The notes under the pieces: model-generated
Databases searched by the model: none
Seen by the model: only the letters and a program-made list of their open reading frames with translations
What the model was told of the DNA's origin: nothing
In this document: positions 40,581 to 43,734 of the stretch, in pieces
How positions within the stretch are numbered: position 1 is the first letter of the stretch
Layout: every line of letters begins with the position of its first letter
Made by a program: the position numbers and the translations under genes
From: Hyperoplus lanceolatus
Taxonomy: Eukaryota; Chordata; Actinopteri; Uranoscopiformes; Ammodytidae
Length of the DNA stretch: 64,000 nt
Assembly: GCA_026929865.2 (NCBI GenBank)
Contig: CM049396.1
Coordinates: 38,156,501 to 38,220,500, forward strand
Direction of reading: 5' to 3'

Positions 40581-41219
40581 GTAATGCATAAAAAGAACAG
40601 CAAACATTGTTTTACTTTTTCGTCTATCTCAGAAGTAGTTGTCCCAGTAAAACACAGGGATATCTGTAGAATTAAATCTGTCATTGAGTCGAGCAGGAAA
40701 GGATTTACAGCCCTGAATATAGTATAACTGATGTGGTAAACTATAGCCTGTGTACTATGTTCTCAGGAGCAACAATGCACTCTACTGTTAGGCCTATATC
40801 AAACATATGTATCTTGATATGGCATACTGTATAACTGTCGGTGTGTGCATTTCAATAATGGATGGAAAATGATGTGCACATCTCTATATGTTAGTCTTTT
40901 TCATTAAAGGGAAAATTCGCCGATTTTCAACCTTAACTCATCTACCATAATATTATTTGGGTCGCATTATATCCCTGTGTATTTTTTCAACACCGTCCGT
41001 TTCGCGGGGACCGAGCTTCAAAAATCCATTCACCGGTGACGTTTCTATGACGTTTCTGTGTCAAGGAAGAGCTCGTGCAGACTACAGCCTCTCGGAGCCG
41101 AGCTCACCAACCCCCCTCCCTGTGAATCCAGGGGGCGGACTCTAAAAGCACGTGCGAGCCAAAACAAACCGTCTGTCCATGCCCCATGTCAGTTTACTTG
41201 TATCATTTCCTGCATTGAA

Positions 41220-41397
41220 AATTGCATCTTTTCACAGGAGCGCAGACGATATCATGGATGAGGATACCTTAAAAAGTGTGTTGGCTGACTGGAATGAACC
41301 AGCAGGGTATTTAGTTGAGCCAGAGAAGCCTACACTGCTGAAGAAATTCAGCGAGGAAATACAGTATGCAGAGAGGCCGAGGCTGCAGCTGTTTTAG
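41220..41397 (+). CDS. Upstream exon of the P2X7-like-domain gene, acidic N-terminus
   Basis: From ATG at 41,254 the frame reads MDEDTLKSVLADWNEPAGYL, then PEKPTLLKKFSEEIQ, ending in a stop after PRLQLF. If spliced, a donor before that stop would be needed, and no strong GT site is evident near it. A GTGAGT at 41,531 could be the donor in another frame. The acidic, hydrophobic start resembles the leader of fish proteins bearing the P2X7-like C-terminal module. Linkage to the next exon is inferred from order and strand. Confidence 0.4.
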
Positions 41398-41764
41398 CCT
41401 TGGTTAGCGTTAGCCTTGTAAAGACAATACAACTGGACCACCACTAGAAACCGAGAGGCATTTTCAATATCCATAACATAATTTGGAAAAGACAACAAAT
41501 ACCAGCAAGACCGGGAGGGCAGATGATCATTGAGTGAGTAACATTATTTTTTTCTAGCATGTTGTAACGTTATCTTTGTCAAATTGTGTTGTCTGAGCCA
41601 TTGCACTGATGTTGCACTTCATACCATGTCTATAGCACTTTTCAGAAGAACCCTTTACAACAGGTCAAATAAAATGACCAGTCTTTTGTTCTTACATTGG
41701 CTGCTATTGTTACATTATAGCTTTGTGGAGAATAACCACTTGTTTTGTGTTTTACTTTCTTTAG

Positions 41765-41938
41765 ACATAATCAACTTGTCGCACGTCGGTTCTTTATTGA
41801 GTGGGTGCTCCAAAGGGGAGAGACCTGGCAAGGGGACTGCATCATCTTACCTGCTTGTGTCATACAGCGCATCAGAGCCAAATATCCATCTCCAAATGGT
41901 CACTACAGAGGACAGGCTGAAGAAGATGCTACGTAGAA
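41765..41938 (+). CDS. Exon with a P2X7-receptor C-terminus-like domain
   Basis: It follows a pyrimidine-rich acceptor (TTTTACTTTCTTTAG). The frame reads HNQLVARRFFIEWVLQRGET, then DCIILPACVIQRIRAKYPSP, then NGHYRGQAEEDAT and stop. The pattern (LA.R.F..W, G..R..IPACVV..IR..YP...G.Y.G) matches the cytosolic ballast module of P2X7 receptors, which in fish also occurs in many stand-alone, repeat-associated genes. The upstream Cys-rich zinc-binding half of that module is not seen, so the copy may be partial. An AATAAA at about 42,054 is a plausible polyadenylation signal. Confidence 0.6.
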
Positions 41939-42378
41939 GCTACGGATGAGCTATGATCAAATATGTTGACCTGTAAATACTGCTGCTAACTATGGACACT
42001 GATTGAGATTTAATCATGTGAAAATGTGTCAATTCTCCTTGACTGTATTTACAAATAAAAATCATTTTGTATAAACATGATTGTTTTAGCATCATGTCAT
42101 AGCACAGGTAACCATTTTAATACATAGGTTTGACTTATCAACTAAAAGTGAAATAGTTTCAGAGAATCAAACACTTCATAAGGCATAGATAGAGTTTAAT
42201 ATAACAAGCAAGTAAAACGATGTGCATTATTCTACACACAACTGTAAAGTATGTACATATACAAATGTAAAAAAGACAAATAATATTTTCAAACACTTTG
42301 AGTTTCCAGAGTGTTGGGAAAAACAATTGGAGCATAATGCTTCCTTCGTCAAGTTACTGTTGAAATATTGAGTGATGT

Positions 42379-43303
42379 TTAGCAGCAGCTTCTTCTGTAG
42401 TTGGTTTTGGACATGTTGTGAGGAGGGCAGGCTGAGGGAGCTGTAGTGATGATGTCAGCACTTTGCAGGCAGCGGTAGGGTCGCTTCTTCGTGTGATGAC
42501 GAGTTCTACCAGGGATGCTCTGAAGTGGTGCTTGTGGGATGTAAACAGTCTTCACAACCGATTGCGTGGCCCTCGGACAATACACCATCTTCCTTTGGAC
42601 CTCACCTGAAATGACAAATTATGATTGTATCACAAGGCCAGCACTGAAGAGAAGACAAAAGAAAAATCATGGTATTATACTGTAAGATAATGTTGCTGCA
42701 ATAAATATATAAAACAGACATACCAATATGTAACCACATATGTATGTGCACTAACACAACAGTAGTCTGTTGTCTAAGAAGACATGTTTATATTAGCAGC
42801 CAAGCATATGCCAGGGTGTGGCTGTGCATTTGTATAGGAAGAGCCAAGACGACACAAAGCTAGGGACATCAGTGCTAATCACCCAGTTATCTCCATCAGC
42901 ATAGCAATTGTTTATGGTTTTGAAAAGCTGATCATTTTAACAACATCGCTAATAACCATGCACATGGAAAACAAACACACAGTCACACACAAACAGTCTT
43001 GCAAATGCAACTAAATCTTCCTCAATGTTACACAGAGGGGCCTATACTGTTCCCCTCACGAGATCACTTCTAGCTGTAGCTTAGCGGCTAAGCTAACTTG
43101 GCTACAGCTTCAACCGGTAGACTAATTCTTCCTTGCCCCATCAATCAGCCTTACACCGGGACACAATATTCAACAGCGGTGTGGGCAGCACAATATTAAT
43201 GTAGGGGAAACACTGATACTAACTACAGTAGGCTACTATGCAATTTAGCTCACGTTAGCTTACCTTTATTCGGATTCTTTTTCCCGGGGCTGGTGCTATG
43301 CAT
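42379..43303 (-). CDS. Two-exon basic protein, opposite strand of the TTAA element
   Basis: Minus-strand ATG at 43,303 opens a short exon (MHSTSPGKKNPNKG) ending at a GTAAGC donor (43,263-43,258). An acceptor TTTCAG lies before 42,605, and exon 2 continues in frame as EVQRKMVYCPRATQSVVKTV, ending RRSCC and stop at 42,379. The frame-compatible junction supports splicing. A separate upstream ORF on the same strand (43,410 to 43,303) starts MPSCNVPGCANFRKQKRRR, whose opening resembles the first Cys pair of THAP fingers. That ORF stops before the junction. Function unknown. Confidence 0.4.
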
Positions 43304-43734
43304 CACGCCGGGGAACTTTTATCAACAGGTAGTCTCTTCAGTTTACGCTTACTCCTTCTTCTTTTCTGTTTCCTAAAGTTGGCGCATCCAGGCACATTAC
43401 AGGACGGCATGTTTTCTTTGTGGTAGTAGTCAAACAGGGAAATAATACGAAGCACGCTACAACTGTTCTGTTGACACGGGTGCTGTGCCTGTGTGGTCAC
43501 CATGGTAACGCGAGCAGCTCGGAATCTGGGCGGGCTGCAGAGCGTACAATGCATCCTGGGGCCTGTAGGAACTGTAAAAACGGCTACGTCAGCCCCACGT
43601 CATCAGTTTAAATCCGAAATCATTGTGCTCTCTGCCAATTCTGATCAATTTTTTGGGGGCTTTTTTCATTAGACTACTAATATACTCGGCCCTGATATAC
43701 CATTTACATGAAAATCGGCTAATTTTCCCTTTAA

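Follow-up and report, generated by a model that had tools for sequence, protein, structure and literature searches.

An element of 2,831 bp (both TTAA counted) within the analysed DNA of Hyperoplus lanceolatus most probably represents a non-autonomous Kolobok family of the Kol0 type, and its P2X7-like exon would be a relic of the element's own KolX gene; we put the probability of this reading at roughly 0.93. The window, i.e. the whole stretch of 64,000 nt that was analysed (contig CM049396.1, positions 38,156,501 to 38,220,500), harbors the features compiled in Table 1. According to the excerpt of PMC9587614 available to us, the Kol0 lineage of Kolobok combines a DDD/E transposase with KolX as a second gene. 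The ancestor of the family would accordingly have possessed two convergent genes, one for a THAP-DDE transposase and one for KolX, an accessory protein with a P2X7-like ballast fold. In the founder, internal deletions would have taken out the core of the transposase and, from KolX, the Cys half. The deleted copy would have retained ends recognised by the transposase and would have been amplified in trans, by cut-and-paste into TTAA sites, with a related transposase made elsewhere, and the P2X7-like exon would have travelled along as a passenger relic.

Table 1. Coordinates of the element and its remnants in the window
Feature	Position	Strand	Evidence
Whole element, probably non-autonomous Kolobok type, TTAA at both ends included	40904..43734	.	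inverted ends, genome-wide end matches, aligned copies, DNA search
Left TTAA and terminal inverted repeat, begins AGGGA	40904..40929	+	arm comparison
Putative KolX first-exon remnant, Cys stretch missing	41254..41397	+	tblastn, frames of 15 copies
Putative KolX last exon, P2X7-like stretch, stop codon included	41765..41936 (about)	+	PF20478 match, L016 C exon match
AATAAA, possible polyadenylation signal of KolX unit	42054..42059	+	sequence
Putative last transposase exon remnant, frame-shifted relative to L016	42379..42618	-	tblastn in two frames, E 2e-28
Putative transposase gene start, first THAP-like residues (MPSCNVPGC), THAP incomplete	43303..43410	-	12 residues similar to L016 THAP exon
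Right terminal inverted repeat and TTAA	43709..43734	-	arm comparison

Ends and genomic copies of the element

The two arms of the element are 96% complementary over 26 nt with the TTAA counted in, in line with the TTAA duplicates and near-perfect inverted ends described by a previous sequence-only reading of this DNA. A 14-base end searched without mismatch is located at just two places in the window, both at the element's own ends. AGGGA is present at both ends, which corresponds to the 5'-RR ... YY-3' pattern of Kolobok. The ends can be assigned to the Kolobok type because TTAA plus AGGGA fits both the TTAA and AGGRR ends of the T2-MITEs, which are attributed to Kolobok in the part of PMC6004289 at hand, and the 5'-RR rule for such elements in the excerpt of PMC9587614. 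The superfamily proposed earlier thus agrees with the structure of the termini.

A search of the whole assembly (806.7 Mb, 527 contigs) with the 26-mer end and up to two mismatches resulted in 117 matches, 58 forward and 59 reverse, versus none for the reversed pattern, showing that the ends are not due to chance. Opposite ends were paired by eye among 100 of the 117 end matches listed, 32 loci were fetched, and 33 two-ended loci, the window included, were examined. Exact TTAA motifs on both sides were found in 29 of them (exceptions L023, L026, L037 and L039), as in the target-site duplication of the Kolobok superfamily. The alignment comprises 15 of the 33 loci with a length of 2.7-3.1 kb, again with the window. 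Their flanks are all different, TTAA is present on both sides in every case, and 14 copies diverge by 1.5-5.3% from the majority sequence (a comparison that takes in 30 bp of flank per side). The larger value of 16.9% for L022 is explained by the fact that part of this locus is another sequence. The abundance of the ends and the 15 TTAA-flanked copies at different sites bear out the claim of a mobile TTAA unit. Other genomic copies in which the ends and the two genes occur together, which the sequence-only reading had named as its test, were also found.

The DNA search with the window element returned 62 pieces (best 40 of 133 candidates scored), and at least nine rows, the window's own counted, cover the full query. 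The majority of the longer loci match the window family but carry interruptions. Judged by eye, these include a Harbinger-like ORF in L012, a reverse transcriptase in L020 and piggyBac-like pieces in L019 (about 327-4075), the latter lying in an insert within the Kolobok copy that is bounded by TTAA-CCCTCTGA ends. Loci L036-L040 combine the ends of the window element with a MITE size of 312-450 bp. In the window itself, a tandem repeat with a period of 40 (6.1 copies, 40335-40578) is located about 325 bp before the element, and two others occupy positions 1371-2130 (period 368, 2.1 copies) and 2629-2964 (period 113, 3.0 copies). Two further fragments, on the plus strand at 53666-54109 and on the minus strand at 56069-57467, presumably represent LINE-like reverse transcriptases as judged by eye, and the former resembles the ORF nested in L020.

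The flanks of all 33 loci were joined and compared with the loci fetched; a different locus was matched across the junction in one case, that of L027. When its flanks are united with one TTAA between them, they agree with part of L016 at 214 of 222 positions, the match extending just 17 bases beyond the TTAA, and the match of the unjoined sequence ends at the TTAA. This related empty site supports a true TTAA insertion for a sister copy of the element. In the same comparison, the joined flanks of L013, L021 and L039 matched themselves only, and no empty site was found for the window copy.

Remnants of two genes

The sequence-only reading had recognised two convergent genes between the inverted ends. 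Matching the exons of the longer relative L016 against the window element identifies them as probable stumps of a KolX and a transposase gene. The KolX C exon of L016 retrieves its equivalent with an E value of 9e-15 (tblastn), and KolX exon 1 is matched over residues 1-39 of 113 (E 4e-10), the resemblance reaching as far as PAGYLVEPE and being followed by another frame. Of the 33 two-ended loci, 25 contain the KolX C exon.

The proposed similarity to P2X7 holds in the profile search, where the exon scores 31.3 bits (E 2.4e-7) and exceeds the Pfam cut-off of 23.5 for PF20478 (P2RX7_C). The match is limited to profile positions 148-190 of 192; it is real but partial and lacks the Cys half, whose absence had been noticed before. 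No significant match was obtained against PDB chains, and the top two of three rows were P2X7 (residues 552-590, best E 0.28). The KolX of the Kol0 lineage is defined by a ballast fold and seven Cys; the window copy has its C-terminal part and is devoid of the Cys half. A P2RX7 gene was rejected as the identity of the exon, considering the short profile match, its location inside the element and the stops that separate the first ATG from the P2X7-like exon in all 15 aligned copies. The AATAAA is found where it had been reported, inside an 18-base stretch that is identical in 15 of 15 copies.

On the minus strand, a two-exon basic ORF had been postulated. Its two pieces exist, but the second changes frame relative to L016, so that the basic end of this piece is read out of frame; the "gene" appears to consist of the two ends of a transposase gene with a frame shift. 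The THAP exon of L016 matches the window over 12 residues (E 0.007, tblastn), and the Pfam search of the window element detected no THAP at this position. The core exons of L016 yielded E values of 0.077 or worse, or no match (tblastn), which is consistent with the earlier statement that no DDE core is visible. A DDD/E transposase of its own with C/DxxH and THAP, as expected of an autonomous Kolobok, is hence absent from the window copy, which is a non-autonomous relative and not an autonomous Kolobok.

Coding capacity and selection

Internally deleted P elements encode small proteins that regulate transposition. A comparable role of the short THAP piece, the KolX exon or both is very improbable here. 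If the GTGAGT donor at 41534 is used, the first ATG (41254) is joined in frame to the P2X7-like exon in none of the 15 aligned copies, but starting from a second ATG (41523) a core-containing fragment could be made by 14 of them, with a length of 60 aa in 11. The donor, the acceptor and the AATAAA are mostly kept across the aligned copies (L013 has a 4-base deletion in the donor region), a pattern that a recent common origin could also have preserved. The pN/pS ratios of 0.42 for KolX exon 1 (frame 0) and 0.59 for the THAP stretch could reflect some constraint, but they are based on few changes in stretches carrying frame shifts and deletions and are no proof of function. The P2X7-like exon, with a pN/pS of 1.24 and a pairwise divergence of 0.038 that is like the rest of the element (0.016-0.057 in 150-bp steps, L022 left out), exhibits no sign of protein-level selection within the limited power of 15 copies. 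The value for the last transposase exon is 1.31. The remnants appear to be functionless. A more specific proposal, namely that splicing and translation of the truncated KolX exon continue at many loci and that the product, a ballast peptide of some 60 aa devoid of Cys, acts as a dose-dependent repressor of active Kolobok families, is a shade more doubtful still.

The longer relative L016 and the origin of the P2X7-like exon

L016 is a locus of 7.7 kb with window-type ends. Its transposase strand comprises a complete THAP domain (PF05485, E 5.1e-17), a TTDR...DVWH exon, a last exon and additional stretches that resemble a transposase. The opposite strand has a KolX-like first exon with the motif WCRCYNC (by eye), which lacks a Pfam match, and a KolX last exon with 25.3 bits for PF20478, above the cut-off. 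No Pfam family exceeded its cut-off with the DVWH exon (MULE, 17.1 versus 27.6 bits), and the ends together with the motif suggest that the transposase is of Kolobok type. L016 would thus carry the pair of transposase and KolX that is known for Kol0 Kolobok elements. Among 40 fetched loci and the window, core exons (E up to 1e-3) were detected in L016 only. The nearest cores retrieved from the genome are those of L016, L066 (96% to L016) and L067 (93%).

The genome-wide distribution of both genes is informative. PF20478 has at least 111 matches in this genome (best 150 of 210 candidates scored) and none in 14 control genomes. The search with the L016 core exon retrieved 30 rows (36 of 36 candidates scored), and among the at least 111 matches listed a PF20478 row is located within 7 kb of 24 of them, compared with a chance expectation of about 0.002 per row. 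All 24 pairs are on opposite strands and convergent. Counted by locus the pairing amounts to 23 of 29, as a single locus on C1 accounts for two core rows, and many of the 29 loci are copies of one family and not independent events. The six core rows that lack a nearby P2RX7_C match are those of L016, L066 and L070 and three on C11, C13 and C21; the KolX exon of L016 is itself absent among the at least 111 matches listed, and the core row of L070 adjoins a stretch of N.

The same pairing of core and KolX occurs in two further families, represented by L061/L062 (99.1% identical) and L063/L064 (97.9%), whose core exon is 41% identical to that of L016 (63 aa, E 2e-15). Since the pairs are 98-99% identical, these families are probably recent. 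L063/L064 start at TTAAAGGTCACATA. Two other groups of repeats are worth mentioning. L041, L043, L045 and L051 form a family that is about 95-98% identical over long stretches and whose ends were not found; in L041, a KolX-like ORF runs uninterrupted for 178 aa and includes the Cys residues. L054-L056 and L058-L060, together with further PF20478 rows, constitute another KolX-bearing family in which the P2RX7_C match is split in two and most of the copies listed have a single internal TAG.

These data bear on the scenario of a TTAA element that captured a host exon, the C-terminal region of P2X7, and spread it as cargo. The P2X7-like exon does sit in a multi-copy TTAA unit from which the transposase core is missing, but in the longer L016, whose ends are those of the unit, this gene has an identical orientation to the transposase, the pairing of core and KolX recurs in the diverged families L061-L064, and KolX is a described gene of Kol0 (excerpt of PMC9587614). 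Host capture is therefore very unlikely. The sequence-only reading was right that the unit is mobile and carries a P2X7-like module and wrong in the idea of a cargo; the module appears to be a remnant of KolX that the element did not acquire. Neither a gene-capturing MITE nor a pair of host genes that happens to lie between such ends is supported, since both genes are degraded pieces of the transposase and KolX genes that L016 itself carries. Ends of the piggyBac type are CCY. Membership in piggyBac was rejected, as the ends of the unit begin with AGGGA, unlike this type, both THAP and a DVWH core are found in L016, which shares these ends, and the presumed piggyBac-like pieces of L019 (by eye) are confined to a nested insert. 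Even though the TTAA target is shared and the truncation is of a similar kind (excerpt of PMC9587614), a piggyBac origin is next to impossible.

The preferred reading, a Kol0-type family with a relic of its own KolX, also has evidence against it. The matching pieces of L016 and the window family are no more than 68-88% identical, so that L016 does not identify the true donor element, and six of the 30 core rows are not accompanied by P2RX7_C. The transposase core, which stays below the Pfam cut-offs, and the lower pN/pS values of KolX exon 1 and the THAP stretch also count against it.

Relation to known systems

The window element resembles Kol0 Koloboks in its TTAA target, its 5'-RR ends and its transposase and KolX pieces, and its longer relatives have both genes in convergent orientation. 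It differs from them in being non-autonomous, with neither a transposase core nor the Cys portion of KolX. With the T2-MITEs of Xenopus, as described in the part of PMC6004289 at hand, it has the TTAA plus AGGGA end and presumably the mobilisation without an own transposase in common, but with about 2.8 kb and its gene remnants it is not a short MITE. The P2X7 C-terminal ballast (PF20478) corresponds to the window exon in the last 43 of 192 profile positions; the exon lacks the Cys cluster and the element, apparently, the receptor part. Both would be homologous through KolX according to the excerpt of PMC9587614, where it is argued that P2X7 took its module from Kolobok-type elements. The spread of the ballast domain is described in PMC7016195, and the terms "transpos-", "Kolobok" and "mobile" are absent from the portion of its text at hand.

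The element is most likely one of many defective copies of the Kolobok/KolX type already described, with the P2X7-like piece as an ordinary leftover. An orphan P2X7-like exon thereby finds its explanation as transposon debris, and the numerous P2RX7_C matches and convergent core loci of this genome agree with the published Kolobok origin of the P2X7 tail. Such exons should not be annotated as P2X7 genes.
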